From positions 5,914,212-5,978,211 of the forward strand of contig NC_031478.1 in the NCBI RefSeq assembly GCF_000006565.2: a stretch of 64,000 nt of DNA, written 5' to 3'. This document shows, one piece after another, positions 21,215 to 60,569 of this stretch; the first letter of the stretch is position 1, and the number at the start of each line of letters is the position of its first letter. The notes under the pieces were generated by a model, which saw only the letters and a program-made list of their open reading frames with translations, was not told the origin of the DNA and did not search any database. This DNA comes from Toxoplasma gondii ME49 (taxonomy: Eukaryota; Apicomplexa; Conoidasida; Eucoccidiorida; Sarcocystidae). A program made the position numbers and the translations under genes.

Positions 21215-24200
21215 TCACTGGGGATTTCGCTGCGCGCCGCTTCCACAGCTACTGCCTGTCCCACTGGTTTCGCCTGAGGGAGCATTTCCAGAACTAGAGT
21301 GAGGTCCGTTTCCTCCCGCTGTCGTGGAACCCGAGTACGAGGACGTCGAGACCCCGACAACGTGTTGGGCGGCCGCGAGCTCTGCATGCAGGCGAATGAG
21401 GAACGCCTCGAGCTTTTCGAAGCTCCATCTGTCGCTGGGCAAGAACGCCAAGGTGTGTCTGAGCATGGTTTTCAGATACCCGCGCCAGGGCTCTGCCGCA
21501 AAGACGCCCTGAGAGGGCAGAAGAACGTCGGGGTGCAAATTCTTGCGGCCGAGCAAAACGTTTGGGCTGTCTGTACACCCCCACTCACACAGGGCGTCCA
21601 GCGCAGCGACTTCGTCCCGATTGACGACTTGCAGAAGATTTGGGCCGCCAAACAACTGGCCGATGACCAACCCCGTGCTGAACACGACGCTGCTTTCACT
21701 CAGCAAAACTTCCCAGTAGCTGCTCGCTGCTTTCGAGCCCCCCTCCCCGCTTTTTCCGCTTCCCTCAGAGGCCCCGGAGTCTTTCTTGCCTTTTGCGCGA
21801 CGCGCCTCCTCCTCCTTCCCAGCGTCCTGCGAACCCGCAGGTGCAGAACTCATGCACATCTGCTTCAGAAATCCGTTCCGGATCCACGACTGCCAGCGAC
21901 AGTCGAGGCGCTGCTTCTTCGCCGTCAGCATCTCCTCCGGGGTAATCTTCTGGCCGTACCACACTTTGCGGAATGCAGAACTCTTGCTCCCCGCCGCCAG
22001 CAAAAACACAAGAATCGCGCACTCTGGCGAACAGTAACCCTGCAACGAGAGAAAGGGAGCAAGCGGAAAGAATGAACTCTTACCGTTTCGGAGTCTGGAT
22101 ATCGTGCAACGGTTCAGGTATCTCTTTCGACGTACATCTGGCATACGTATGCATGCTGTGTGAGTGAGTGAGTGAATCTTTCTTCCTCTTATCAGCGCGA
22201 GTGTCCCGGTACTCTTTGTTTTATCTCATCCGCGGCGGCACTTAGGTCTCGACTTAGTCTGGCGCGAGGCCGAGACTGGAAAGTTCTGGACAGTCGCCTT
22301 TCGTTTCGTTTCTTGCTCTCCAGAAGTTCGACTTCTCGATGTGTGGAAGCCCAAACAGTGTAGGCAACTGAGAAAACATCCACGTACTAGGAAACCTTTA
22401 GAGAACGACTTTTTCGGGTCCACGGAAAGCGTGCTGAACACAGAAAACTGAGTGCATCTGTCAGAATTCATCTTTCAACGCAAATGCTCTGTTTCGATTC
22501 TCCGTCTCGCTTGGGCTGAGTACTCTTTTTCATAAGAGTCGTTGCCAGTAAAGTGGTTGCCGTTCAGTCTCTCGCTTCTCTTCGAGTCCTATCCCCTGAT
22601 CTCCAAAGTTCTCCCCAACTGTCTCATAAAGAATCGCCTCCGCATTCGAGCTGCCTACCTTCGTGCAAATGATGTAGGACGGAGACACACCAGGCTGATG
22701 CCGCGTCGGGAACGAAAAGTTTGGTCCTGGGAGAGCGTCTCCAAGGTCGATGATGACGCACCGGAGACAGTGGAGTTGCTGTGTAGATACACTCCGCGTA
22801 AGCTCCACCAGGACATTCCCCGGCTTCGTGTCCCAGTTAATGATGGGTTTTTCAAGTGCAGCGGGCGACGCGAGAAGTGCCTGCGCGCGGACCAGCTTGA
22901 TGGCGATCTCGACGGCGAGGAGTGCTGCACTCTTTTTTGTAGGCACGCGCATCTGCTGGAGAATCTGCGTCAGAGAACGTCCTTCGATTCTCTCCATACT
23001 CACGCCCAAAACGCGAGTGCCGTCTTTCTTCACACCGCGGCTTGTCCAGAGATATCGCGGGATGGGCAATAGAGGCAGCTGGACGCCTGGAGAGGCAGAA
23101 AACGGGCCTCCCGAGCTCCTCCCTCCTCCGCCGGCCTGGGGCACAGGGGCAGTGCCGTGGTTCGACAGCATGCGGTCCAGCTGCTGTACGTACACCTCGG
23201 GATGGTGGAGCGGCTGGGGCTGTTGCTGAAGCTGCAGGAGCAGAAGACGTTGCTGGGCCGTCAGGCGGGAACTGTTCGGTCCTTGGGCGGCAGCCGCTGC
23301 TCGCGACCGCCACAGCTGGAGACAGAGACTTCTCAGCTGCTTTCCCTCCTGAAGCACAGAGTGCGTCTTGTACTTGAGCTTTGACGCGTCGCAGCCGTCG
23401 ATTTCGAGGAGCTTGATCGCAAATCGTTTCCCGAGTCCGACAATCGATGTGTGCAGCTTCGCTAGAGTCGAGGCGTCCTCCACAATTGCTTCTTCTTCCT
23501 CCGCTGCTGCTGAACTGTTGGACTTCTTTCCAATCGCCTCGCCCTTCTGAGTCTGCGACGAGCCCGCGCTCCCTTCTCCAGCGTTCTCTTTGGCGAGCGC
23601 GGCTGCTGCGGCAGCAGCTGCGTGCACCTCTGATGGCACTACGCCGACGGCCTCGCCTTCCCAGACGTCGAATTGGCAGTGGCACTTGGCACTCAGTTTC
23701 CGGTGCAGACGCACTAGCAATCCGCCGAACTGGATGTCGTAGTTTTCTGTTTCCTGATCTCCTGCATGCGTCGCACTCGAGCCTCGCTGAAGCAACTGGC
23801 CTTCTTCGGCGCTCTGCGCGATCGCTGTGGCGCCGCTGCGCAGATGGCTCTCCTGGGCCGGCTGCAGAGGCGCAGCCAACTCGTGAAGACCCGAAAGATG
23901 GGAAGAGATCTTCTGTGTGTGGGCGAGTCCTCTGGCTCTGCTGCCTTCACGACTGCATGCGAAGCCTCCCTCTGGAGGAGCCTGCGCCGTGCAGGAGCCA
24001 GCCTGGCGACTGCTGCTGCGACTCCGTCGAAAAGGGAAAACTTTGCTACCGTTCACTTTCTGGAGGTGGTAAGCTGGAGACAGAGGCTTTCCTTCTTCTC
24101 CGGTCTCCTCCCCTCCCCTGGGTCCCGAGGCTACGCGGTGGGCGCCGCCGAAGTGTCGCCGAAAGATACCAACTTTTCTCCCAGAGTAGGACCCGAGGGC

Positions 24201-27200
24201 GCCTCCGTCGCCTTCAGGCTCCAAAAGATACGAATCTGCCGAGTGGCGAAGCCCCAGCAAGACGGGCAGATGGCGGCCATTTTTCTCGTCTGCAGGGAAA
24301 GAGTCGCTGGATGACGAAGAAGATCCAAGGAGAGAACCTGCAGCTGCTGCGGAACGGGCTGCGCCAGCTGCATCGTTGTTCTGCTCTCCTTTCCCGGCGG
24401 CGACCGCTGCTTCGTAGTCCGCTGCAGCTGTGGCTTGGTTTTCGTGAAACTCCGAATTGGAGGGGGCTGTGTGGTATCTTCTTTCGTTTCTGCGAGTCGC
24501 TGCTGCCGACGATGCGTTGCAATTTCTGTCTCCGTTTCGGCAAACGTGGACTTCTTCCTTTTCTGGTTCAGCCCCTGCACGATGAACCTCCCAATCTTCC
24601 TCCGGTTTGTCTCGAGAAACCACGGAGCGTTGTGTGGAAGCATGCCCGCTGGAGACGTATGCGTCATCCTTCCCACTTCCGACACCGGCACGTGTACAGT
24701 GTACAGACACCTGAGAAGTCCTTGCACACGACGAAAGCGGGGGTGGCTTGTCTTCTTCTGAGTTATGGCCCCAGTGCGAGTCCGTGGCCACTCGAGTTTT
24801 CCCCGAGGATAGGGAAGGCGGATTCAGAGACACACTCTCGAGCAACTTTTGCGATCCCGTTTGCGGGACGGCGAGCTGTTCGCAGGATCCACACACAGGT
24901 CCCGCTGCCGCGTTATCAGCCTCTTGTGAAAGGTTGTCGTCTCCAATTTGTGGAGCAGGGGGCGGAGACGGCGGCGGAAGAACAAGTTGCCCAGGAGCTC
25001 CCGAATCAGAGAGAGTGGTTCCTTTCGTGTCGTAGTGGTGGGAATGCCGTCGCGGACGGAGGACCCGCGCCAAGGATGAAAGCCCTACGTAGGTAGACGC
25101 AAACGAGGATGCCCCTCCAATAGTTCTACTCTTTCGTCCGGCTGGCACACCGGCTCCGCTGCTCGACAGAGCTGCTTCCACTCCTTCTTTGCTTCCGGGC
25201 TGCGTGTGCACACTTCCCGACGAGCAGGTATGGGACCAGTGCCCGTCTCTAGAAGTACTTGGCTCAGAGCAAGAAAACTCTCCCGTCGTTCTACCTCTCA
25301 CAATTCCACCTGCGTTGGTCGCTGCACTATTGCTCTTGGAAGAGGCGGTGTTGTTTCCGCTGCTCGAACTCGCACTCGAGCTCCCGCCGCCTCTGGCAAG
25401 TGACTTCAACAGAGACGAAGGGGTCCACAAGCTTGCTTTCTTGTTTCCGGCGCCACAGTTTCCTTCATCCGGACCGCCTCGCGAAGGCGACAGAGACACC
25501 TCCACGACCCCTGGCGGCGACAGCGAAGGCGGAACTGCCGCTGTCGCTGCTCCCGCGGCTGTGGCGTCTGTGCCCGATGAGAGGAAAGGCCGTTCGCTCT
25601 TTTCCGGTGTATGGCCACCGCGGCTGGTTGCTGAGAGACCTGGTACTCTTCCTGACCGAGAAACAGTTCCTCCCTCCAAGGGACACGTACCGCTGTGAGG
25701 GCGGGGAGGCAAAGACGAGTGCTGAACCAGGTGCCCACTTTTCGGGCTCGAAGGTGTGCGCTGCGGCGACGCTGCAACACAAAGAAGGGCGACAGCGAAG
25801 GGGAATAGAATCAGAAAGTGGAGAGTCCTGATTTAGTTGCTTTGTGTTGTTACAAAGTGGAAGTAAATGCAGTGGTCTGTGGCAAATAGTGAGGAATCGA
25901 GCCGGGGCTTCTGCCAAGTGTAAGAGTGTGTGAGTCAGCTTCCTGCCTTGTTGCGTTTCGATTCTCTCAACAGACAAACAGCTTGTTCGAGCTTCGCGGG
26001 AGGAGAAACAAGTCAGAACTTACAGCGTCTCTTCACACGACTCACGATGAAGAGCCGACTCTCCGGCTCCACATCGTCATCCGCTGCGTCTTCGGGACTT
26101 GGCGACTCCTCCACTTCGTCTTCCTCCTCGTCATCATCTCCACGTAGCAGCCGCGTGTCGAAAAGTGGAGGCTCTCTTCCAGAACTGCCTCTCGCCACAC
26201 CGTCGCACAAATGTCTTCCTATCTCACGTTCGTCTTTTTCGAGCCCGCCGGTAGTTCGTGGACAGCATCTGCAGCTGCCTAGAGGGCGGCACGCACACCA
26301 GCTATTTCTCCGTCCAAAAAGTTCCCCACCCCGTCCTAGGTTGTGGTGACGGTGAAGAAGACTCTGTTGTAGAAGAACCTGCTGTTGCTGTTGGGCTTTT
26401 AGGGATTTGCATGCGCTCGAGGGCGCCCCAACGAGGCTACGCCAGTCTTCGTAGCCGTAGATGTGGCTGTGAGCGGGCGAGTACGCGCCTACCCGATGAA
26501 CGGTCTGTGTGTGTAGCGGGAAAGTGCCTGTCACATCCCCCTCAGACAGAAGCGGTTTCTGAGCGCTTTCACCACTGCCTCCAGCGTCTGCTGTCTTCTC
26601 AAATCCCCAAAAGTGGCCGGGAAAGAAACGCTCTGAGCCCTTCCTGGCGGAAGTCGAAGAAATCGCCGCGAGAGCGGCTGAGTAGCTCACAGCACTGTGG
26701 CGCCGAGACCCGCTTCTGGTTGACCGGCGAAAAGGTTCGGCCGTAGACAGAGCTTCAGCGGCGTGGTGCAGACGATACGGCATTTTCTGATGATCGCCAG
26801 CGTCGCGCCCGTCCTCTGGACTGTCTCCCTCTTCTTCCTCGTAGGCGGCAGCAGCGGCTGCCGCTGCTACAGCTTTTTTGGAGGCACACCAGTAGCTGAC
26901 AGAAGGGTGGGAACTGTGGAAGTAGCAGGACATGTTTGAGTGCGCATCGGGAAGGAAGGCGAAGTCCCCCTTGCTGAAGGCGTCACTGGGGGGTGCGAGG
27001 CTGCTGCCGCCAGCGGCGAATCCCCCGCTGGTGGCATCGAAAGTCATGGTCAGTTGTCCGCTTGGAAAGTCGAGTAACCCCCCTCCATCTCCGCCGAAAT
27101 GGGACCCAGTCCCGCCAAAGCCTGCTCCAGTAAATGTTCTGCGAGGGCCGTCTTCACACCACTCGTCCGCGACGCTGAACCGGACACGCCGTAACGGATC

Positions 27201-28256
27201 TCCAGCGGTCACGCCGTCGGCTGTCCCGGCAACTTGTCGCAAAAGGTTCTGGTGCATTGCGCTACAGGTTTTGCTGCGACCTCTCCTGCGATTGGCAATG
27301 ATCTGGCAGTTGGTGAAGCCTCCATCGCCGTCTTTGGGGTCGCTAGCCATACTGCTCTCACCGGTTCCCGTGTGATGTACTGCAGCGACTGCAGCCGCTG
27401 GTGATGCGAAAACGCATCCGGAACCCTCGTCAGCGGTCATCATGTTGCTGCTGCTGCTGTTTCCGCTGAAGTAGATCGTCGTCGCGGTTGATCCCGCGCC
27501 GGCATTTCCAGTAGAGTTACCGACAGACGGAGGAGCAGTGGAGTGAGGCGCTCCCGCGTCGCTCGGTAGACAAAACAGAGGCTGAATCCGGTTGCCATCC
27601 TTTTCTGCGGCAGCCCCAGAGCTGGGGTGTTTCAGGTAATGCAGAGATGATTCAGAGGGTTCGGTCCACTGATCGTTTCCTTCGTGAGGAAAGCGCCAAT
27701 TCTTCCCGCCAGAATTTGCGCTGGGAAGGTCGTCAGTTAGAGAATTCATGTCCAAGCAATCTCTTCGAGCTTCCGGAACGTACGTCTGGCTTGGCGCCAA
27801 CTCTTCTGGTTCAGGCAGACGCCCCTGGCTGGACAGGGGTTGCCGTTCTAACGAGCCAGTGGCCGGGCGAGAGAAGCAAAACGATCGTAGAGCAGGAGTG
27901 GCCAGGTGGGGAGACCCTTCCGTCGTAATCTCACTGTTACTGCCACTGATTTTGCTCGGGTGGTGCCTTGGATTACGAAGGTAACTGTCGCTGTAGCGGC
28001 GCAGGTGAACATGCAGAACGCCCACTTCACGTTTCGTGAAGAGGTCTGCTGAAAGCGAATCTTCACTTACAGGTGCCCTACGATTGGAATGAAGTGTCGG
28101 GGAAGGCGGCGACAGCGGCGCCAGTTTTACAAGGAGCGGACGAGACGGCAACTGAGGCAACGGGGAAGTAGGTGGCGGTAGGCTAGACAGCGGCGGGGAG
28201 CGAGAAGCATTCGGGTTGAGGGGGTTGGACAGGACACAGGAAGGCGAGTCACACAT
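21215..28256 (-). CDS. Very large divergent protein kinase (about 2056 aa)
   Basis: Three exons keep one frame: 28256-26024, 25771-22659 and 22039-21215. Introns have donors GTAAGT and GTAGGC and acceptors TTGCAG. The start is the first in-frame ATG, in a good context (gaaaaATG); the frame is open farther upstream, so an extra 5' exon is possible. Residues 1 to about 1400 are low complexity (Ser, Gly, Ala, Gln, His) with no domain seen. The kinase core lies at about 1480-2020: FAIKLLEIDG holds the likely ATP-anchoring Lys (about 1531). The catalytic loop is NWDTKPGNVLV (Asp about 1725), lacking the usual HRD His-Arg. The metal motif is DLG (about 1753). The activation segment ends TKGYCSPECAILV, formed only by splicing. 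VVFSTGLVIGQLFG and LPSDRWSFEKLEAFL match subdomains IX and XI. A Gly/Lys-rich insert of about 70 residues follows SPE. There is no signal peptide, arguing against a standard rhoptry kinase. Substrate and subfamily are unknown. Confidence 0.72.
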
Positions 28257-31200
28257 TTTTTCAATATTGCGTTTCAACCGTGGGGGCCTTGGCACCCCAT
28301 TAGCCCTGGGTAGAAACTGAAGCCTTTTAGGACTCGTTTCAGAAGAGAGACCAGGTTGATGATCATAATAATTCACACGTGGTCAGGGCGAAACCGCTCT
28401 ACACAAGTACAGATCGAAGTGGTCATCAACGGGTCAGCGATTTCTCCAACACACACCTGTTACGGAGCAAACCAAAAGCCTCCGTGTCATTTAATCTCGA
28501 CAAATCTTCGGGTTTCACAAGTGTAGGCCTCGATTCACAACAACGGATTTCACTGTTCACTTGGAGAAGCACATCAGTCATGAAGGGATAAGGTTTGACT
28601 TAGGTATGCAAGTACTTCTATGCAATCCGAGTCGTTTCCGGAACCTATTCTCGGACGCAGTCGTTGTCACGGAGATTGGCACACACGGAAACACAACGGT
28701 GTCCGGTTTTCTTTCTCCAAAAGCGTCTTTCCAACGCCCCCCCACAATTCACGGCATCGAAGCTTTTTTTTGGTCTAATTCCGCACCCACATACCGCAAC
28801 TTTTGGATCGCACCAGAAACGGAGACTGAAGGAGTGACATAAGAAGACCGGATTACCGCATCGGTCATTATTGTAAACAGAGAGTTCGGGAAATAGGGAG
28901 TCACGAAACACTACTTATCACACCTGCTGCTACTTTCTCTTCCTGACGATCACTACTTTACGGCGATTGCATTTGAACTTGAAAGACAGAAAAACACAGA
29001 AGCGAACTGGAGTCAAAGTGTAATATTCCCAACTCACAGCTTAGATCGTCATGTTCTGTTGCGTCAATACAAGCTCTAGATAATGGAAAAGTGTATGGAA
29101 TTCCCTCGTTACTGTTGGTTTGGTATTGCACTCTAGAAGAGCACAGCACAGTCGGAAATAGGTATCATGAATGAAAAAAAGACGGCAATTCAAACAGTCA
29201 CACAAACTGCTGAAATTTGTGGACACTTAGAGGTGCTTTCAACAAACGTTTCGGTCAGATAGTCTGTTTGAGAAATTAAACAGGAACGCTTCAACGCATG
29301 CTATTCCCTGTATGAGTCTTCCGCTTCTGCGATCAAGTCCTGACTGAAGGTTCAAGTATTCAAGGAATTTTCAGGAACAAACGAACTTCCGATTCACGTG
29401 CGTCATCAAATGGAGATTGTGCGCCCGACTACAAAGTCTTCCACTCGCGTTCCAATTCCAACATCCTACACAGTTGTGCGTAGCACCTCCGTTTCATTGC
29501 TTCTCAGCTCTCACTGCCATCAGGGCACTCAAATGCAGAACAGATACATGGCTGAACACGAGCAACACGTTTTTTTGAATCCGGGTCACACGAAACGCAA
29601 CACTCGAAATCAGGTCTCACAAACAAGACGAAGCAGGCACATAGCATTGTTTACTCACACGGACATCACAAAAAGGAACATCCACTGCGAAGAACACACA
29701 CAAATCGTGTAGCACAGCAGTCTGATCTGTTCCCCCACTAGGCAAAAACTGACGCTTTTGGACGGATACGATTAGCAGAGTGCGGGAGCCTGGGGGGCAC
29801 ACTGCGGTTGAGCCCCGTATGTCTTGCTTTTTGTCATAAAGGGGAAGGTGATTTATCGTTTTTGATCCTTTAGCCGCATGAAGCTAGAAAATACCGTCGT
29901 ATCTGTGCATCTTCTGTCTTCACGCGTTCCATCCGCGTTTTTTCCTGGGGAATAGAAAACTGGAGAACTACTCCGGGGTCTCTCTGCCAGAAGAGCGAAA
30001 TGTCAGATGCTAAAAGCGTTCATTGCGGTAGTGAGAAATGCTTAGATAGAGCGATACCCACACGGGTTTAGACAGATTCGTCACTTGCTCTCTTGTGGGA
30101 GCAGCATTTCTTCAGAAGCCAGCGTCAGCTTGTTTCAACGCGAGCATCCGTTGGTAGCGATGATCCGAGAATGGAAATCCTTTGAGGCGACAACTACGAA
30201 GAGCTTATCTCCCTCTGATTGGAGGCAGCGTTCTTTGGGCAAGCAATGGTGGAAAAGAAATCAGAGTAGTGCTCTCACAGTGGCGCTTCCGCCGCCACAA
30301 AACAATCGGGCGCCAGCAAGCTCAGAGATTGAGGCGCTATGCCGGGCCGTGGCCTCGCTTTCGAGGTCCCGTTCTAATGGCTGCCTATTACTACTGTGCA
30401 TCTTTCTCTGTTATTAGTCATTCAGGCGCGAAAGTCACTTCACTTTGGAAGAGAGCTGCGACTCGAGTGCTTGATGGGTATGGGAAGAACCGCGAGGAGA
30501 AAAGTCGATAACACTACACGGAGAATTGGGAGGCTTCCTGCTCCCTTCGGCAGCCACGCCAGGGTCACGTCGAAACGTCTGTATCACCTGCGGGTCTTTT
30601 GTGCTTTGCTCGCACCTAAAACCATAGGAAAAAAGCCCCATTTCTTACGTCGGGGCCTCCCGCCGCGTTGTGGGTTCCTACCGCTAGAGGGGCTGCTTCT
30701 GGCTCTCTCCCCACAAACAAATCGTTGGAGGCCGTAAAGTCTTCCAAATTTGAACAAGTGTGTTTGAAACTTTCTCCCCACCCGTTGCAAGAAAGAAGAC
30801 TTTTCAGCATAAGAAGTGTGTGTAGGCCTGCCTAGTGTAATGCTGCAATAATGGTGTCAACTACCGGCCGGAATCACGCATACCGACCTTTTGCACATGA
30901 TACGGATACGCCTAAATGGCAGCTGGAGTTCTGAACGTTTGGGCAGCTGAATATTTAAATGACAGAGTGCAAGCTTTTTCCCTTATGAGATCAAACGCTT
31001 GGCAGTGGCACCCGCGAACGTATTTACCTTCGAGGCACGTAAAAAGCTGCAATACACCTGCACAAGCTGATCGGTCGCCAGGCCTTGGATTCCGCGGCTG
31101 CACGGTTAGCTTTCAGGAGAACGAAGACAAGCGTCAGTTTCACTTCTCACACATGGCTGGGGTGACAAGGATTGAACTACCACTGGGACCTGGTTTAGGT

Positions 31201-33858: not shown

Positions 33859-36800
33859 TCATCCAAAGACAGAATGGAGAATGGTCTTGGACAAGTGGCG
33901 GTGTTGCTTCCAAGCGAGATATCGGTTCGTTTGCTTCCACAGGTAGTAGAAGTCGACGATCTCGCACGTTGTTTTCGTCTGAATGAGTCTCTGAAGAGCG
34001 CTGAAGTCTTTGCCGTATTTGCAGATCCCGGCCTCAAACAACGCCACTTCTTTCGGGCCCCAGAGATCAATAACATTATCCTTCCTCAGCGGCGAGGTGA
34101 GGAGTTCCAGGGGCGACAACTTCACGGCTCCGAGTCGAGGCGCTGCCCCGGCTGCCCCCCCGCCTCGACTGCCTTTTCCTCCAGCTGCACTCTTCGTCGA
34201 AGCGCCACCTTCCCCCTTCCTCCCGCCGCCCGCTCCCGCGGCTCCAAAAGCCCCGCTCCCGTCTTTCGCTTCTCTCCCGGAGTCTCCGCCACCTCCTGCA
34301 CCGTGGCTTCCGCCATACACACCCGAAGCCGTACTCCGGCCCACATTGTTGCTTACGATGAGGGCGTAGATCACGCTGTCTGCGGTCGCCAGGCCACCCT
34401 CGAGGTTCACGCGCCCCTCTTTCAACGCGCCTCCAGAGCCGGTATCGGCTCCCGCGCCGCCGCCCGCTGCTAAAGACCCCTCGGAGTAGAGCCCGTAGAT
34501 CCCCCCAGAGCCGGAGGTGCCTCCAGACTTCCCACCATCAGCTCCGGAGCCCTTGCTCGAGCTTCCCGCCCAAGGAGGGGCGCACACGGGGACGGGGGCC
34601 TCGACGAGGCCCGCCGACGCGTCTCCGCCCCCCCGAACAGCTTCGATTCGCCGACTTCGCTTGGTGGAATTGACGGCCGCGACGAGTTCTTGCTGTACTG
34701 TTTGCTGGTGCAGGCTCTGCCACCTTGGCGCCGCGGAACCGAAGTACCACTCTTCAATCATTTGGAGCCAGGCTTCGACTTTCCGAATCCGTCTCTGGCA
34801 AATGTCGTAGCGCGCGCGGATCTCCAGGTTGTTGTATGCATTTGCAGAGATGCGCCGCGGCAAAATGAGCACGCCGTCAGGAACCCCTGCGCCGGACGCA
34901 CTTGGGTCCGCCCCCGCCGGGCCTTCTGGTCCCGTGGCCCCCGGAGGGCCTGCCCCCGAGGCCTGCGCCGCCAGCGCTGGGTCTTCGGACCCCAAGAACC
35001 CCCCCAGCAGTACCGCGGAAGATCCAACGCCCGTCCCACAGCAGCAACACCGGACCTTGCTGTTTACGTACGGCGACGGGACGGGAAGCACATTGTAGGC
35101 TCGCGCGGCTAGCGCAGCTCTCGCGTCTCCCGGTCGCTGACGCAGCCTCGCTGAGAAGCGCGCCGCCGCCCCCGGATCCGAGGTCGCGCCTCCCACAGCC
35201 GCCGTCGCGTCGCCCCACCCCGGCGTCCCTCCGGGGCTGGAAGCCTGGCCCGCGCCTCTCTCTCCAGCTCCACCTCCGGCCTGGCCTCCGCCTTTCTTCG
35301 AAGCCCTCGCGTCCGACGTCCCTTGTCCAGGACTCGATGCATCTGACCCCTCTCGAACCCCCCAGCTGGCGCCCTTCTCGCCGCCCGACGACAAGCCTTC
35401 CAGGCTCTCTCCGGTTGCTGCAGCCCCAGCTGCTGCTGCTGCACTCTGGGCGCGCCGCTTTCGAGTGCTCATGCCCGACCCCGCATACGCGGCAGGCGCG
35501 GCGCTCGATTCCCGTGACGGCGGGCGCGGTCCCGAAGAGACAGGAGGGCCCGCTGACGAGGGTCCTGAAGCCGCGCCAGCCCCGCTGGCACTCGCGGGTC
35601 CTTCAGCTCCGGCGAGTCCGTCTCGGCCGGAGTGGATCATGGGTCTCGACCGCGACTCCTCGCGGTCTCTTTCGGACTGCTTGCACGCAGCCGAGTTCGA
35701 GAGCTGCTCGCTCGCGGTCGGCGTGGAGGCGCCCTGGGGCGAGCAGGCCATCTCCGCCTTGGTTGCACTGAGAGGCGAAGCGACAGAGGGCGACGGAGAC
35801 ATCGAGGGGCTCTGGCGAGCGTTTCGGAAGTTTTGGCGTCTCCGTTTCGCGTTAGGAAGACCGTCTGCGTGTGTCCCGTTCATCTGCTCTACAGGCACCT
35901 TTCCGCGGGCCTCTGCTGATCCGCACGCGTTTTCCGCTACCGCAGGATCTGTCGATCCGTCGTCGCGACCTCCCGCGCCGAGTTTCTTGTCTGCGTCTGA
36001 TGCGAACTCTCTGGACACGCCGTTCTCGTCCAGACAGTCTCCAGCTGGACTCGCCTGCGTCACGCCATTCGCGCGCTTCTCCGGCTTGATCGGCTCCACA
36101 TTCTTGCCCGTCTTCGGCCTGGTCCCCCGCCCACCTCCGTCCCCTGTTTTCTCTCCCAGAGTCGATCGCAGAACCTTCTTCTCAGTAGGGAAACCCCCAG
36201 AAGCGGCTGTGGCGGGTCCAGAGCTCCCACATGTCTGACTGGCGAAGTCGCCGTCACTCGAGCCCAATGCAGGTGAGGCAGTGGCTTCAGGCCGCCGGCA
36301 GCCGCGCCGAGAACGAGGCTGGGACCCCAGGGGTTCCAGGGCGGCAGACGAACAGACTGTCGCAAAGTGGGGAGACGGGGAAGCTGGCTGCGCGTCTGAA
36401 AACATACTGTGCGTGGCCGCATCTTCTTCACATGTTTGGGCTTCCACCTTCCCCGTTTCCTCCTCCTGCTTTGCTGCAGACGAACCGGCGCCGTGGCGTG
36501 GCAACACACGACCCGAGTGAGCTGTATGTACACTGAAGCCGCCGGCGTCCCCGCGCTGCGCGGGCAGGGGTGCAGGCGTGTGGCAGTCAGTTGCGCTTTT
36601 CCACTGGGCTTCCGCCGCGGATATCACGGGTTGTTCAGAGGCAGCTGAGTCGTCGTCTCGTGGCTTGCCTGAGTCGCTTCCACTTGCAGGTTTTTGCGGT
36701 GGATTTGCGGCAGCTGCGTGACGAGCAGCTGCCTCTGTCTGCACGCCTCGAGCCGGAAGACTCTTCGCATACGGAGTCTTTCCCAGGCACTCGGCACTGG

Positions 36801-37302
36801 GTCCTTCTTTATTATCTCCATTCGCTGAATCTCCTTGATGGTGTGTTTGCGTCTCCGTTGCCTCTGACGCGGCTGGAGTTTCCCTTCGGCGTTTCGACTC
36901 TGGTGTGGCAGGCCCGCGGCTCGCGACCCCCGAAGCAGCGTTTTCACCAGCATTCGGAGACGACTTGCCCAGGAGTTCGTCCTGAACTGCCTCTCCGGGT
37001 GCACTTCCTCGACGATGTTTCCTCGAATTTGCCTTTTCCTCTTCTTTCGGCACAGATTCCCCGTCCTTTTCGGAGTTCGCTTTTGCGGATCCACCTACAT
37101 GCGGCGCTGGGGCCGATGGGTGGTCGACCCGCACGTCTGTGTCGGGGGAAGGCTCTGAAGATGAATAATTTTCAGCGAAGTGCCGAGTTTGAGGAGAGTG
37201 AGATGTGGGAACGCCAGGCGATTCCTGCAAGGAAGACGCGAGCGAAGCGAGGCCGGCAGACGCCGCAGAGGCGGGCTGCGTTCCGGTCGTCTCCCCCCCC
37301 AT
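33859..37302 (-). CDS. SANT-domain (MTA/MIER/CoREST type) chromatin-associated protein
   Basis: Single long exon of 1147 codons, starting at ATG 37302. Most of the protein is low complexity: charged and Ser/Pro-rich to about residue 500, then Gly/Ala-rich tracts. Two ordered segments stand out. One, around residues 740-860, contains YNVLPVPSPYVNSKVRCCCC, then NAYNNLEIRARYDICQRRIR and VEAWLQMIEEWYFG; its identity is unknown. The other is a C-terminal SANT domain (about 1080-1140): WGPKEVALFEAGICKYGKDF, then LQRLIQTKTTCEIVDFYYLW and KQTNRY. The GxxxYGKDF and FYYLWKxT signatures are those of SANT domains that follow ELM2 in MTA, MIER and CoREST proteins and recruit or activate class I histone deacetylases. 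No ELM2 domain is evident. By family knowledge a role in a nuclear HDAC corepressor complex is likely. Apparent ORFs on the opposite strand are by-products of the biased composition. Confidence 0.8.
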   Translation of the reverse strand: MGGETTGTQPASAASAGLASLASSLQESPGVPTSHSPQTRHFAENYSSSEPSPDTDVRVDHPSAPAPHVGGSAKANSEKDGESVPKEEEKANSRKHRRGSAPGEAVQDELLGKSSPNAGENAASGVASRGPATPESKRRRETPAASEATETQTHHQGDSANGDNKEGPSAECLGKTPYAKSLPARGVQTEAAARHAAAANPPQKPASGSDSGKPRDDDSAASEQPVISAAEAQWKSATDCHTPAPLPAQRGDAGGFSVHTAHSGRVLPRHGAGSSAAKQEEETGKVEAQTCEEDAATHSMFSDAQPASPSPHFATVCSSAALEPLGSQPRSRRGCRRPEATASPALGSSDGDFASQTCGSSGPATAASGGFPTEKKVLRSTLGEKTGDGGGRGTRPKTGKNVEPIKPEKRANGVTQASPAGDCLDENGVSREFASDADKKLGAGGRDDGSTDPAVAENACGSAEARGKVPVEQMNGTHADGLPNAKRRRQNFRNARQSPSMSPSPSVASPLSATKAEMACSPQGASTPTASEQLSNSAACKQSERDREESRSRPMIHSGRDGLAGAEGPASASGAGAASGPSSAGPPVSSGPRPPSRESSAAPAAYAGSGMSTRKRRAQSAAAAAGAAATGESLEGLSSGGEKGASWGVREGSDASSPGQGTSDARASKKGGGQAGGGAGERGAGQASSPGGTPGWGDATAAVGGATSDPGAAARFSARLRQRPGDARAALAARAYNVLPVPSPYVNSKVRCCCCGTGVGSSAVLLGGFLGSEDPALAAQASGAGPPGATGPEGPAGADPSASGAGVPDGVLILPRRISANAYNNLEIRARYDICQRRIRKVEAWLQMIEEWYFGSAAPRWQSLHQQTVQQELVAAVNSTKRSRRIEAVRGGGDASAGLVEAPVPVCAPPWAGSSSKGSGADGGKSGGTSGSGGIYGLYSEGSLAAGGGAGADTGSGGALKEGRVNLEGGLATADSVIYALIVSNNVGRSTASGVYGGSHGAGGGGDSGREAKDGSGAFGAAGAGGGRKGEGGASTKSAAGGKGSRGGGAAGAAPRLGAVKLSPLELLTSPLRKDNVIDLWGPKEVALFEAGICKYGKDFSALQRLIQTKTTCEIVDFYYLWKQTNRYLAWKQHRHLSKTILHSVFG

Positions 37303-39477
37303 TGCGGGACAGAGCGCTGTCCTTGTTTACGGACCTGTCAGTGCGCAAAATTTTCGCGGGACTGAGAAAAACGTACGAGAAACTGAACGTTTACGGAGAA
37401 ACGAGCGGAGAATCAACGTGCAGACGGTGCCGAGACAGCATCCGAGACGGGGAAGAGAGCGGTGGCGCGCGAACGGGCAACGGACACCGGAAGTGGAGAG
37501 TGGAAAACGACGGATACGTTGTTAAGGAAAAAAGAAGAAGAAAGAAGACGAAGAGAGTAGAACTCCCGTCTTTGCGTCTCGTGCCTCTTGCCACAAAAAA
37601 AGCTCCACCTTTCTCGTGACAACCTGCTCCCTCCTCTGGATCTGGGAACGGCAGTTTTCTTCCGCAGCTCAAAAATCGAGCTGGCGACTTGTGCAGCCAC
37701 GAGAGACCGAGAAACGCCAGCTTTTTCCACTTTTGTCGCAGTTCACCTGCGCTAAATGCCACACTAACCTGCCTGCCGAAACAGACAGGTGACCAGCACG
37801 CCACAGCACAGCGTGAGCAGGTACTAAAGCCACACTCCGGGTGTTGTTTCGGGGTGTTTGTCGCCCTGCACAAAGCCTCGCGTTCGCAGGCGTAAAGGCA
37901 AGCTGGAGAAACACGCCTTTCCACCAGGAAAAACAGATTAGGCACACTTTAGCCGCTGCTCCACAGTCCACGGTTCGCGCTACAGCGAGAGTCCCGTGCA
38001 CCCGCTTTCTTCGCCCTCCTCGAACAAACACCGCAGATGTGTACCTGGAGAGTTTCGCAGTAAGCCGGCACGGGGACGCGAGAATTTGACCACCCCCGCG
38101 GCAGTCCACAGAACACGTTTTCTTCCTCCTTCTTTTCCTTGCAAGTCAGAATCTCCGTTATGACTCGGCTATGTGCCGGAAACCGAGGCGTGTGGACGGA
38201 AAGAGTGGCGGCGGGCGGGTCGAGGCTTTCGCCGGGGCATGTGCAAGAAAAGAAAAAAGGCTCTCTTGCGAAAACGAGTCGCTTCTGAGGCACTCCAGAC
38301 TCTTGAAAAGCCCCGAGAGACGCCGCGCCGGCAGAAAAGACTTCTCGTCCGCAAACTGATGGACACTTGCGGAAAACGCGTTAGGTGGCAGTGCCCGGCT
38401 AATTTGTCTCGGTTTCTCAGCGTACAGATCTTGAGAAGAGAGCGCCGTGGCAGAGAACGCACCCCCTGGGAGAGGGGAAAAGAATCCCCGTTTCGACCTA
38501 TATAGCGAATGGCCGCGCGCGAAAAAGAGAGCCGTCCTCTCGACAGGCTTCTAGTTAATTTGCCTGCGTCTTCTGCCTCTTGTCGGCACGAAGATAAAAA
38601 AATGTCGCAGATAACCCTCCTTCTTCATAGAGACTACATAAGGAACGGTACAGCCTTTCACCGGTCTCCACGGCGTTCGCGCCGGTCCCGCCGTAGCAAG
38701 ACAAAGCTAGTCAAAATTTGCTTCCTCCCTAGCGCGTAAATCTTGGGGTCGTCGAAGTTTTGCCGCGTCTTTTCCTCTCATCTTTCCCTTGTTGTGAAGA
38801 AACTGCGCAAGGTGGCATCTTTCTTCTTTGAAGAGAAAAATGAGACGTAGTAGCAACGAGAAACGAGAAGAACGGGGGGGCTGGAGAGCGCTGTGAACGA
38901 CGCCGGTTGTTCGGGGCTGCAGCACGCGAATTCGCGCGCGCGTGGAGGGCTCTTCGCCGATACACTCAAAAACGCCCGGTATTCCGTTTTTTCTCGCGAA
39001 TTTCTCCTGTTGGCTTCTCAGACATTTCCGACACTTGCTTATTCTCCTCGATATTCTGTCTACGGGAAAAGCCTCTGCCGTCGCTCCTCGCGGTTTCCCT
39101 GGGGATTTGAGTCCGTAGAAGAAGATGTGCTGCACGTTACCATTCGCTGTCTCCTCCGCCTCCGTGGTGTCTCCGCTTCTCCGTCCTTCTTCTTTCTCTC
39201 CGTTGGTCTCTTTCTCGCATTGATCCTGCGTCGTCTCCCACAGAGCGTCCTTGTCCCTTGCCTAAAAACTCGCGTCGACCAGATTCCACTTGTGGCTCGC
39301 GGTCCTTCTGCGCCTCCCCGGTCTCCCCCGTCGCTGTCTTCCCCCCCCCCCTGTCCTCTGTGTTTCGTCCTTCCTCTCTTTTCCTCTTTCTTCGCCCGTC
39401 GTGCATCTCTACGACTTTTGCGGCCTCCCTGCTCCTTCCTCCTCCCCCGCCTTCCCTCCCCGTCTCCGGTGCCCCAG
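37303..39477. promoter_or_regulatory. Divergent intergenic region between the SANT gene and the HPR gene
   Basis: The two genes are transcribed away from each other, so this 2.2-kb region should carry both promoters and 5' UTRs. The part at about 39140-39477, just upstream of the HPR ATG, is strongly pyrimidine-rich on the + strand (tctc/cctcc words). That is what is often seen in coccidian 5' leaders or in an intron near the start. No TATA-type element can be assigned. Confidence 0.4.
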
Positions 39478-54472: not shown

Positions 54473-57400
54473 TCACACGTCTGTTCGGACTGTCTGCGGA
54501 GATCCACCGTCCCCGAAAAATCCTTGCTTTCCTTCCCCTTCCACCTTTGGGGACCGACACGGAAGAAACACCGGCCCTTTCTCCCTACGAGAAGACGCGT
54601 GAAGAGCAGCGCTAACTGACGGCAGGCTCTGTGTGGACATCAAGACTTGGAAGAGCGACGACGCGACACAGTCAGGGGAAGAGAAGAGAGGTGGAAGAAA
54701 AGCCAGCGGTGAAGCAAGGCCTTCGCCGCCACCTGGAAAACTTCCCCCGTCGAGGGGTCCGCCGAACGAGGGAAAGGCGCGTGCACGCGATTTGTTTTCG
54801 TCCTGCGAGCGCAAGGGCGAGACCCAGGTCGGAGACAGGAAGTCTTTCTCGATCAGCGGGCAGAGGCACGAAACGGGCAGAGACAGCGGGTCTCCCACCT
54901 CGCCTGTCTCTTGGCACTGCTGAACCCGGGTGTCCTGCCCCAGGGACGACATCGTTGACGGGGAGCAAAAACGCGAAGGACAAGCGTGGGTTCTCCTTGC
55001 CCCGGTGGCGCCAAGAAGAGCTTCCGCAGCAGCGAACGGCGACGCGTTCAAATGCGGCGGGCGACGAGGTGGCGAGGCAGAAAACAACCCAGCAGTATTC
55101 CGCTGCGCAAAAGGACCCAGCCTCTTGTGAGACGGCGTTCCTGCAGTCTTCACAGGTTGAGGAAACGGGGCCTGTGGAGGTGGGGAGGGCGAGAGACACT
55201 GAGGACGCGTGGCAGCGAAAGCGTGGGCAAAAGAACCGTGGAGAAGTCGGACAATGTGGGCGTCCAACAGATTCGCCGCAGAAACGATGTTCTGAGACAC
55301 CGCAGGCAACAAACAAGAGACAACGTTGTGTGAAGACATTGACCTCGAAACGGGGGAAAACGCCACATTCGATGACTTGCTGTCCCACAAAAGACGAAGC
55401 CAGCGGCGTACGCCACACATACCCCGTTCTTCTTGTCCCCCCGTCTGTGTTGTGCGCCTCATGCACTCTCCTGTCCGGCCCTCTGTTTTCTCATCACGAT
55501 ACTCATTTTTACCTACCCTCGAAAGTCCACAAAGCATGACAGTTGAAGACGCTTTGTCGAACCACGCGTCAACGAGTCCTGTCATCGCTCCGATTTGGCG
55601 CAAGAAGGATTTGCGTCCAAATTCGCTTCTCAGCCTCGCGACCTGGTTTTCAACGTTGCTCTCCTCAGCACCATCCCTCGGCTTCTCCGCCTCCAGGACC
55701 CCAACGGGAATGTCCCCTCCGGGGTGGCCCAGACGGGCGGCGAAGGCGGGTCCGACCGGGGCGTAGAAGACACAGCGCGGAGCGACTTCGGCGGCCAGGC
55801 ATCCTTTGTGGGCATGGAGATCCGAACCGCCCTCGTCTGAGAGATACTCCAAAGCCGACAGCCGAGAAGAGGGACGGAGACCAGCGCGGGGCCCCGACGA
55901 CGGCGAGGAAGAAACATACCATGTCGTGCAGCCGTTGTCTGCCTGATCTGCGCCGTCAGCACGCAAACGCCCGCGAGCAAAAGAAGGCGGATACAAACAG
56001 TATGGAGCTGAGAAAACCCGAACTTCTGCGAGAGCCTCTTCGACCGTCTGGCGGGACGAGCCGTAGATGCGGATGCGGCGCGTTGCGGAGTCCTCTTCTT
56101 GGGGAAAGACGCGGATCTCGACCTATACAGAACGAAGAAAGCGACAAAAGGCAAGCGACGCATAACATCAAACCAGAAAGAGACGCAGAGTAACATTAAA
56201 GATAGACAAAAAACGATGGACTGTCCAGAGGAGTGATGGAACAACGTAGACTTGGGAGGGGGGGGGCTGGGACACCACCTGGTGCATGGGAGCGAATGGG
56301 GGCGAACGGAGAAAGATGTCTTGTCATCGAGATCACAAGAAACACAGTTCTGGGAAAGTTTGGTTCAGTGCATTTATAAAAACGTAGATTTGAATCGCTG
56401 GGGTCTGGAAACGGCTAGACTGGCCATCTTGTCCTCGCCAGTTTCTCCCTTCAGGTGGAGCTGCTTCTCCGCTCGTGGACCCACGAACTCCACACCCTAA
56501 ATCACCAGTGTGAACCGCCGGAAGAGTCTCTGGCGACGGCGCCTCTCCTGACGGTTCCGAGCTTCGCGTACACGCCTCACCTGGAAGCGTTTCGCGAGTC
56601 TTTCGAGTCTCTCGCCTTGTTTGCCGATAATGAGGCCAATTGTCTCCTTGGCTCTGAATTCCGCACAGACGCAGGCGACGCCGTTGCTAGTCCGTTCTTC
56701 GAGGCACTTGAGGCGTTTTTCTCTTCGTTCATGAAAGAGAAGGCTCTTCATGATCCGCCTGCTGGCACTTTGCAAAATGGCTTTCAAGCGGTCCACTGCC
56801 ACCCTGTCGAACCCGAGAAGAACGAGCGCGTATCCCTGCCCCTCGCGGAGTTCGCACTGCTCCAGTTCGTGGCTGTTTAGACCGCTGGCGCCGATCTTCT
56901 GGAGACCCTCCGAGAGGACCCTGCGGGAGAAGGAGGCGGGGATGGCGGAGTTCAAGGATTTTTCTCGCCCCTCCACGTCGAGGAGAGACTTCACGCGTCC
57001 GGATGCGGCGTCCAGTGCTCCCTGGCTCAGAGATGCTTCGGAATCTAGACCTGAGACCTTGCGGCTTGCTTTGCAGGGAAATCCCGAGAGTGGTTCCCTA
57101 CTTCGTATTCCGCCGGTGGGTCCAACGCCATGTCTACCCTGCGACTGCGAAGGGTCTCCCACAGTTTTCAGTCCTATCTGCTGAAACACCGTCGCCTCTT
57201 CAACGTGTCCTGCTCTTCCTGGATAGGCCGTTCTTCCGACGAGCTTCAAGTTGTCGTCCTCCTCTGTCGTTCCCTCAGGCAACTCCCCGTGGTTTCGCCT
57301 TTCCTGTGGATGCTCTTCTTTCTCCCCGTGCACTTCTGCGCACCCCAAAAACTCGAGCGCGCGCGGTTCCGGAGCGTCCACTGTGGTGCCCGCCTCGCTG

Positions 57401-60400
57401 CTCCCTCCTGGTTTCCCGTCTCCCGCCTCCCCATCTGAGTGAGTTCCTCGCCCGTGAGTCTCTGCTGCAAGTGGGGAACCCTCGCATGCAGTCAGTCCCT
57501 CGGATCCAGAAGAAACCACCGAGGCGAGTGGCGAGGATGGAAACGGGGAGAAGGGGGATGGCAGATGCGGAAAGGCAGCGCAGCCGGATCCACGGGAGGC
57601 CCCTGAAGTCGAGGCACTCGGAGAAGCAGGGCGAAGCGAGAAGGGCGAAGACACCACTCCTGGGAAAGGCGAGTACGAGGGAGAGAAACCTCGAATCGTC
57701 TGTGGGTCCTCATCTGACGAGCCGGACGTCACAGCGTCGCTGCTGTCTGAAGCGAACGAGCAGGACAGAGCAGGGGTGAGCACGAAGATGCGGTTCTGAT
57801 AAAGACCCAGTGTAACATGTTTCATCAGCTGCCACCCGAAAGAATGAGCACATGTCAGAGGAGTGGAGTCATAGGTGCCTGCAGTTCCCTTGGTCTCCCC
57901 CAGTCATAGAATGGCACTTTTCCCTGGGGATGCTTTGGGTTCTAAGATTCAAAAGAACAAAACTGTCTCTTCCGCTTACCGGTATGGAAGTCGAGAGCCT
58001 CACGCTTTTCCGTCTTAGTGGTGCGGTCGAGTGCCAGAGTTGCCGTTCGGCCTTCATCTCCGTCTTGCGCCAAGGCCCCCCCGTCTGACATAATTGTGAC
58101 GGCGATGACGCCCGGAAACCCCTCTCTTCCGTCGCTTCGGAATCCGAGAGCTTTCTCATTTTGTCCCCCGCCCGGTGTGCTTCGTAAATTTGCGGCTGCA
58201 AACTCGAATAATTTTGCTGGAGACACTAATCTCCGGCCCTGCAGAGCCTGGAGAAGGCTTGAAGCTGCCTTCTCCTCGTCTTCCTGGTCGCCTCCAGGAG
58301 CAGCGTCGTCACCGGCGAGCGAGCACTCAGCCAAGATCCATCGGGCCGATTCAGTGGAGACAGGCAGAGTCTCTCGACATATCGACTGCAGAAGGACTGA
58401 GAGGGGAACTTCGTAGGGCAGGAGACCTAGGTCTGTTTGTCTGCAGTGTTGAAGATCGTGAAGACCGTTCTGGATGGACTGGTGGAGGCGCGCCGAGGAG
58501 TCAAGAGGCAGTGCCGACGAGAGAGACCCGGAGGCGGCTGCGGAGAAGTCGGGTTCTCCTGTGATCCTGTCTCTCCGGGGGTCTCGTAGCGACGACTCCA
58601 ACACAGTGATCTGAACGGAGGGCGCCGATAGCAGGCGAACGCGGAAATAGCGAGGTGACTCGGTGTTTGAAGCCAGGTCATCCTCAGTCTGGCGCTCGTC
58701 CTGTGTCTCTTCGAGTCGCCCTTTCATAGCCGAAACAAGCACACCGGGAAAAAAACTGTCGGGGCTTGGCGACGACAGGATTCGTGCAAGAGCATAGTGG
58801 GCAGGCGTGGAAAAGGTGCTCGGCCGAAAAACCTGCAGGGAGACAAGAGATGGGAGGGCAAAAAAACAGAAACAAAGATGTGATGGAACGTGTGTCGAGC
58901 AAATTGTCCGTCTGACTTCGGCTTCTATGTATTCCTGGTGATTCCGCATGGTGCGCTCACGAGGGTGTGCCCCGTGTAACAAGAAGAGACGCGACAAGCC
59001 TCGAGGACACAAACCCATGACCCAGGCCACTATTATTTCACGCGTTATGTGGTATTACCGCCTCTACAGAAACAGACAAGAACTCTTCTGGGATTGTTTT
59101 CTAACCTTCATTGACCGAACGCAGAGCCCTCGTGAGTAAAAACATAAATATAAAGCCTATCTCATGTTTTCTGTCCCGCAGATGCCATCTCACCTCCACA
59201 ACGTCTCCGGCTTTCCATTGTTCCGTAGTGCACGAGCGTTCTCTGCTCTTTGCACCCTCCCGGGCCAGATCTTCGTTAGGGTATTCTCCTGCGGTATCGT
59301 CGTGTCTGTGTCCTAGTTCTTTCAAGAAAACCGCATCGTCGCAGCGGTGCGTTCCCTCTTCTGAAGTTGTGTGCCGCTGGGGTCCCGCTAGCACAACATA
59401 AGAACTGGAAATCCAAGTGGGGACAAAGGCAAAAGTTTGCTGAGATGAGGCCTGAGGAGTGGACACGCCATTCTTCTCCGGTCTGAAGGGACCGCTCTCG
59501 ACGTTGCTTTCTGCTTCGTGCAGCATGCTTAAATCCGACGAAATCGCCGGGTCCAGAAGCTGTGCAGTCGAGGTGGCCGAGGTAGACGAAACTCTTGACT
59601 TTGCACGCTCGGATGCACCGCCTGAAAGAGGGAGAGTGGAAGTGCGTTCCTTTCGGGAAACCCCGGGAGGACACGCGGCCTCGCTAAACTGGATGTACGC
59701 TTCGCTCGTGGCAGCGCGGATGTCCAGCAAGAAACCAAGATAGCGACGGCCATGGTGTTCTTGACCTGGCAAGACAATTTCGACTTTCTGTCGAACTGCT
59801 GTTGTCTGCAAATCCAGAAAAGCCAGAAGCACGCCACGCGAATCATCCATGCAAGACAACAAACACAGGAAGTCTGCTGCTGTGTTTTGCACACCAGCGA
59901 AAGGTTCAGGCGAAAGTCTTCCAGACCCGTGCTGGGCAGCATCCCGCCTGTTCATCCAAGCGTTCTATCAGCAGCCCTGGGAAAGTCTGATTAACTGGTC
60001 TTCGGAAGCAACGGAATGTCAACAGTATTTTTACCCCTCACTGTCTGCACAATCAAAAGGTTTTCTTCGTGCTGGAAAAGCTGGCAGTGAGCACTTGCTC
60101 TTCTTTCGGAGTTTTCGGGCCTCCGTTCGGACCGTCGCTTTACGTCTGCACGCACTTGAGGACTGAAGCTTGTAATTTGACTGTCCACGCCTGACTTCTC
60201 TCCGGAGTTCTCTCCTCTGGCGGTTTTTTGCCCAAGAGTGCTGGAAGGTGTTCCATGTCTCGTAGACGATGAAGTGCCCTCCAGTGGAGTGCGAAGGATA
60301 GGGGGACCACAGCGTCTTGGCAAGTCAGTAAGACGTCGAGAGTCTGTACCCCCCAGATACGATAGGCACGCACCCGCAGGCGACCTCACGGAAGCTCGCA

Positions 60401-60569
60401 TTTTCCGTTCTCCTGGCAAACACGCGCTCCGAGATGTGTTGTCTCGGAAATTCGGAGAGTTCAGAGGAAGCAACAGTTCGTGTGAGGCGCTCTCAGACCC
60501 TCCATGGTTTGAGTGTGGTCGCCCACGACCACCTCTCACACGGAGAAGTTGCGGGAAGTCTCCCGCCAT
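54473..60569 (-). CDS. Fragile X family-like RNA-binding protein (Tudor-Tudor-KH0-KH1-KH2)
   Basis: Six exons keep phase: 60569-60042 (tentative), 59964-59194, 58832-57980, 57878-56581, 56122-55517 and 55291-54473 (about 1624 aa; 1445 if translation starts at ATG 59955). FMRP-family proteins bind mRNA and ribosomes and control translation. Tudor 1: QKVEIVLPGQ, RRYLGFLLDIRA, AYIQFSE. Tudor 2 is rebuilt by splicing: EQWKAGDVVE|VFRPSTFSTP, HYALARILSS, YFRVRLLSAPSVQITVLESS. KH0-like segment: HSFGWQLMKHVTLGLYQNRI and, after about 230 disordered residues, GYALVLLGFDRVAVDRLKAI and the long helix ILQSASRRIMKSLLFHERRE. KH1: KETIGLIIGKQGERLERLAK with an intact GKQG loop, then by splicing VEIRVFPQEED, RRIRIYGSSRQTVEEALAEV. 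KH2 is degenerate at its loop (EFGRKSFLRQIGAMTGLVDA) but ends STVMLCGLS|RNIVSAANLLDAHIVRLL, very like FMRP KH2. The tail is Ser/Pro-rich. The order and type of domains match FMRP/FXR; orthology is inference. Exon 1 and its 77-nt intron are the weakest parts. Confidence 0.75.

Follow-up and report, generated by a model that had tools for sequence, protein, structure and literature searches.

A Toxoplasma gondii KH-domain gene with a likely distant relationship to the animal fragile X family

Does the genome of the apicomplexan parasite Toxoplasma gondii ME49 encode a relative of the fragile X proteins, which are discussed from animals in the part of PMC3361156 available to us? The question is raised by a gene on the minus strand of a 64,000-nucleotide stretch of contig NC_031478.1 (positions 5,914,212 to 5,978,211; hereafter the window, whose own numbering is used throughout). 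A preliminary description had proposed that it encodes a fragile-X-like protein with two Tudor/Agenet-like domains, KH0, KH1, and KH2. The six coding exons span 60569-54473, and the joined product has 1489 residues. Our analysis indicates that this product is likely a distant and divergent relative of the animal family (FMRP/FXR1/FXR2); we call it a relative and do not claim proven membership, since three family features were looked for and not found: a GxxG loop in KH2, an RGG box, and matches to the family's Pfam models. The protein contains a KH1 domain, and its collinearity with fragile X proteins has statistical support. The complete order Tudor-Tudor-KH0-KH1-KH2 is likely, as predicted from profile and fold comparisons, and Tudor1 and an entire KH0 may be part of it.

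Collinearity with fragile X proteins

The gene is conserved in four coccidian species. In addition to the deposited T. gondii protein (P0001, "KH domain protein", strain MAS), we found relatives in Hammondia (P0002, HHA_237550; 88% identity), Neospora (P0003; 51% identity), and Cystoisospora suis (P0004; 29% identity overall, 60% across the KH0-KH1 region). Pfam searches with these four proteins and an earlier spliced version detected KH_1 at E 1e-8 and a sub-threshold KH_2 but, even with E-values up to 10 allowed, neither Tudor nor Agenet nor KH_9. The KH domain read from the joined exons was thus recovered, but the Tudor, Agenet, and KH0-type models remained unmatched, an outcome named beforehand as refuting. 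Since such a generic KH result could refute the fragile X idea, more sensitive tests were needed.

We therefore used hhalign to compare the coccidian alignment (four proteins) with one of 21 fragile X sequences, namely human FMRP and 20 of 117 found proteins. The later joined-block and specificity runs used 19 fragile X sequences headed by Anopheles Fmr1 (P0073), to which their positions refer. All hhalign P-values apply to one profile pair, with three of the four coccidian sequences kept (Neff ~1.5). The uncut region 131-1243 aligned to FMRP 164-281 over 116 columns with 26% identity (P 2.7e-5), and a third alternative placed Tudor2 at FMRP 56-85 (P 0.046). Single blocks were each scored against 200 column shuffles. 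The start of Tudor2 was placed at FMRP 57-84 and KH1 at FMRP 217-281, both with scores that none of the 200 shuffles reached; for the second half of KH0, placed at FMRP 164-210, a single shuffle did so (3/200 for a shorter cut). The remaining blocks were less informative on their own: the Tudor1 tail had no significant placement in FMRP (106/200), the Tudor2 tail was unplaced by profile alone (193/200), and the KH2 block landed on KH0 (17/200). Block 576-596 (1/200) and three joined KH0 blocks (0/200) scored well but landed on KH1.

Once the inserts were left out, all domains aligned in fragile X order (P 1.1e-8, 334 columns). By score, the real value was not reached in 200 randomizations of any of five nulls, random block order included; with KH1 removed and the number of aligned columns as the measure, 8/200 reached it. 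Because these blocks had been chosen with FMRP in view, we ran the test again on blocks defined by T. gondii-Cystoisospora conservation; adjacent blocks were fused, and three very small ones (533-534, 871, 1140-1145) left out. The result was again a collinear alignment (P 1.3e-7, 302 columns), with 0/300 in four nulls and 1/300 for random order. In both tests, the true order Tudor-Tudor-KH0-KH1-KH2 therefore beats random order (0/200 and 1/300, respectively). When KH1 was removed in the repeat, the alignment spanned Anopheles Fmr1 11-117, that is, both Tudors, with a score of 35.6 versus a null maximum of 30.3 (0/300).

As a specificity control, 22 other KH matches in the T. gondii genome were compared with the fragile X profile. 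Three of them, located in one open frame with three KH domains on contig 14 (L001, L003, L004), scored 38-48, compared to 37.0 for the KH0-KH1 piece of P0001 and 40.4 for the full protein. These three match the end of KH1 and KH2 of the fragile X profile; a span from KH0 into KH1 was seen in none of the 22.

AlphaFold2 models were built from coccidian sequences alone, so that no fragile X sequence entered them, and were of poor quality. In Foldseek searches against the PDB, the top match of two models was the human FMRP Tudor-Tudor-KH0 structure (4ova_A), with weak E-values of 0.075 and 0.2. Tudor2 folds as a Tudor domain in the models, and other Tudor proteins (TDRD3, SMN, PHF1) match it at about equal Z. 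The KH2 part was modelled as helix-helix-strand-strand-helix (pLDDT 53-77), and its KH fold matches include 2qnd_B.

Gene model and individual domains

As a coding unit, the gene is real. All five introns have GT/AG borders, the phase is kept across the joined exons, and their identity to the deposited T. gondii protein is 99%, with 12 residues differing between the window translation and P0001. The comparison with P0001 corrected the 5' end: exon 1 had been thought to start at 59964, but 59806-59964 is intron, the true exon 1 (60569-60156) had been missed, and exon 2 covers 59805-59194. The exon end at 59194 and the exons 58832-57980, 57746-56581, 56122-55517, and 55291-54473 were confirmed by in-phase joining and GT/AG borders. 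Likewise, three domain elements are indeed created only by splicing, since intron 2 splits Tudor2, intron 4 KH1, and intron 5 KH2, the last by joining VMLCGLSR to NIVSAANLLDAH.

Exon 1 (60156..60569; residues 1-138; ATG at 60569, donor gtgcgt) matches P0001 and encodes the N-terminus with one RGG at residue 12. This triplet lies in a short RGG-type stretch, RVRGGRGRP (P0001 residues 9-17), which is altered in Neospora. Exon 2 (59194..59805; residues 139-342) agrees with P0001 save for the differences counted above and carries the predicted Tudor1 and the start of Tudor2, whereas exon 3 (57980..58832; residues 343-627) contains the rest of Tudor2 and a possible, unconfirmed first half of KH0. 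A long low-complexity stretch, the second half of KH0, and the first half of KH1 are encoded by exon 4 (56581..57746; residues 627-1015). Exon 5 (55517..56122; residues 1016-1217) provides the second half of KH1, a linker, and the first part of KH2; exon 6 (54473..55291; residues 1218-1489 and stop) provides the KH2 end and the C-terminal tail. Antisense to exon 4, the plus strand has an open frame of 341 codons (56754-57776), probably a by-product of GC-rich coding sequence.

The predicted Tudor1-like block (59662..59796; residues 142-186) aligned in order with Tudor2 when KH1 was removed, and a possible last Tudor1 strand, conserved in coccidia, follows an insert of ~75 residues (59380..59436; residues 262-280). 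The first strand of Tudor2 precedes intron 2 (59194..59220; residues 334-342) and was assigned by hhalign, the adjoining part (58764..58832; residues 343-365) by hhalign and the Tudor fold in the models. Its last strands (58569..58649; residues 404-430) come after an insert of ~38 residues and correspond to model strands 274-290 (pLDDT ~66-72). The KH0-like second half with its long helix (56671..56844; residues 928-985) runs on into KH1 at FMRP 164-281. The first half of KH1 (56581..56676), detected by Pfam KH_1, includes the GKQG loop at residues 1001-1004, which is invariant in the four coccidian proteins; in the second half (56000..56122; residues 1016-1056), G1036 aligns at FMRP G266. KH2 (55517..55666; residues 1168-1217) lacks a GxxG loop, is recognized by the KH fold of the model and by alignment, has L1189 at the position of FMRP I304, and ends with a strand and helix in exon 6 (55223..55291; residues 1218-1240). 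A first half of KH0, placed by eye at residues ~484-499 and 585-592, was dropped, since these pieces were insignificant alone or placed on KH1.

Public records name this gene only as a KH-domain or hypothetical protein. A search for apicomplexan KH-domain transcription factors lists TGGT1_237550, a "hypothetical protein" of 1489 residues (PMC10734933), which we infer to be the present gene from its length and the number shared with HHA_237550; the available main text of that paper does not contain the string "fmr".

Competing explanations of the domain order

Beyond the missing Tudor, Agenet, and KH_9 matches, several results weigh against a fragile X relationship. PF18336, PF05641, and PF17904, the Pfam models carried by animal fragile X proteins, were unmatched at E up to 10. 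Alone, the Tudor1 block was placed weakly (best at FMRP 11-38, 30/200 shuffles) and the first-half KH0 block at a wrong place in FMRP (66/200); in the AlphaFold2 model, Tudor1 forms no barrel. For the KH2 part, pre-ribosome and MEX-3C KH domains are slightly better structural matches, and its GxxG loop is absent from all four coccidian proteins (GRKS in T. gondii and Hammondia, RRKP in Neospora, RRRA in Cystoisospora). A C-terminal RGG box is missing from the T. gondii protein, the sole RGG of P0001 being that at residue 12. KH1 alone was rejected as family evidence, because a second KH gene of T. gondii reaches equally high scores against fragile X proteins; the evidence is therefore in the Tudors, KH0, and the order. 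Phmmer and hmmsearch runs against PDB sequences returned KH proteins of a generic kind, a small number of unrelated chains with weak E-values, no fragile X protein, and no match to the Tudor region.

The proposed layout was thus partly upheld, with the collinear alignment and its shuffle controls and the top Foldseek match to FMRP in its favour; unconfirmed are a barrel for Tudor1 and the initial half of KH0. Similarity beyond chance, which had been claimed for the whole protein, was seen by Pfam for KH_1; for the remaining layout, it was seen only by profile-profile and fold comparison. In the structural comparison with FMRP, the Foldseek ranking and the fold of Tudor2 agreed with the proposal, but the paired barrels did not appear.

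It is unlikely, in our view, that Tudor and KH domains came together separately in a coccidian lineage, with no common fragile X ancestor. Such convergence would fit the database searches: coccidian queries found coccidian proteins only (one search limited to lengths of ~512-1629 residues), and among the 117 proteins found with a fragile X query (~762-2425 residues), every row naming an organism was an animal, ~50 rows being without one. As the protein search needs shared five-residue words, it says little on fast-evolving protist relatives. Other Tudor and KH proteins, too, are about as good matches to the Tudor2 and KH2 folds. However, the similarity is unbroken from the KH0 segment and its helix into KH1, Tudor2 and the KH0 half are each correctly placed (0/200 and 1/200 shuffles), and the true score is hardly ever attained with blocks in random order.

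We consider it even less probable that the gene encodes a different KH protein, such as a multi-KH protein that is specific to the lineage and has a single Tudor-like domain, in which Tudor1 and KH0 have been over-read. The single KH in Pfam, the unfolded Tudor1 model, the undetected first half of KH0, and the preference of KH2 for pre-ribosome and MEX-3C domains all suit this explanation, but both Tudor blocks align to Anopheles Fmr1 11-117 without KH1 (0/300 by score), and FMRP heads the Foldseek list of both models. The protein resembles other multi-KH proteins (PCBP, FUBP, IGF2BP, MEX-3C, Krr1) in its KH1 sequence and KH2 fold; none of these families is known to carry an N-terminal Tudor pair or KH0. 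Multi-KH proteins of the PCBP/IGF2BP type are defined by at least two canonical GxxG KH domains, whereas here only KH1 keeps GxxG and one KH exceeds the Pfam cut-off. Similarly, Tudor2 is as close in fold (about equal Z) to the single Tudor domains of TDRD3, SMN, and PHF1, which are not known to have KH domains in the order found here. A mistaken fusion of Tudor and KH exons from separate transcripts is very improbable. The deposited models may be automatic predictions, but the five introns keep phase and GT/AG borders, the same order is predicted in Cystoisospora at only 29% overall identity, and a model of 1489 residues, TGGT1_237550, appears in a published list (PMC10734933).

Taxonomic reach and possible function

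In the available parts of seven papers (PMC4630921, PMC3361156, PMC10138883, PMC8092261, PMC10734933, PMC9712993, PMC5430443), no apicomplexan fragile X relative is reported, and among the papers listed in a literature search for the family in apicomplexans and protists, none was found that names the gene as fragile-X-like. The T. gondii genome (65.3 Mb, 1959 contigs), searched for paralogues with the exon encoding KH0-KH1, yielded the gene itself and two weak matches (E 0.08 and 0.10). Genome searches with KH_9 or human FMRP KH0-KH1 gave no candidates and were uninformative, because no positive control matched either and KH1 is split by an intron.

With the fragile X family (FMRP, FXR1, FXR2, insect Fmr1), the T. 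gondii protein shares the Tudor-Tudor-KH0-KH1-KH2 order by collinear profile alignment, the KH1 GxxG, a leucine at the I304 place, and a glycine at the G266 place. F178 aligns at FMRP F32 and L409 at Y96, both being invariant in the four coccidian proteins; according to PMC5430443, the substitutions F32L and Y96L disturb binding by the Tudor pair of FMRP. At the first of these positions the residue is shared with FMRP; at the second it is a leucine by alignment. Unlike fragile X proteins, the coccidian version has inserts of ~38 and ~75 residues in the Tudors, one of ~330 ahead of the KH0 half, and one of ~110 separating KH1 from KH2, and the T. gondii protein lacks the KH2 GxxG, the C-terminal RGG box, and matches to the Pfam fragile X models. 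Cystoisospora has no RGG at all, and in Neospora the triplet occurs singly at 34 and 1423.

The most likely role of the protein would be that of an mRNA-binding adaptor of the fragile X type, tuning how its targets are translated or stored. In this model, mRNA would be bound through the intact GKQG loop of KH1, and partner proteins would dock on the Tudor pair. The contribution of KH0 and the degenerate KH2 would mainly be to stabilize the fold. Large inserts appear to have been added to loops and linkers. In human FMRP, the RGG region plus the C-terminus is needed for repression (PMC9712993); without a C-terminal RGG region, any repression by the T. gondii protein must use another part or recruited partners. 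Tentatively, we regard it as quite possible that a Tudor-Tudor-KH0-KH1-KH2 mRNA regulator existed in the animal-alveolate ancestor, and that coccidia kept a single, heavily expanded copy as their own translational regulator. A coccidian member, if true, would mean that this domain assembly predates animals or arose twice. Stage changes of T. gondii depend on translation control, and parasite biology would gain a defined candidate mRNA adaptor. The protein would also offer a natural case for judging the importance of single fragile X parts: KH1 is kept and the Tudor pair probably so, whereas the KH2 GxxG loop is lost and the RGG region needed for human FMRP repression (PMC9712993) is absent.

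Elsewhere in the window, the minus-strand open frames 22533-25832 (1100 residues) and 26016-28382 (789 residues) had no Pfam match at E 0.001. The longest open frame, also on the minus strand (33862-37326; 1155 residues), matched no other Pfam family at this threshold than DUF7952, a weak match near its end (E 8.7e-5, below the Pfam cut-off).

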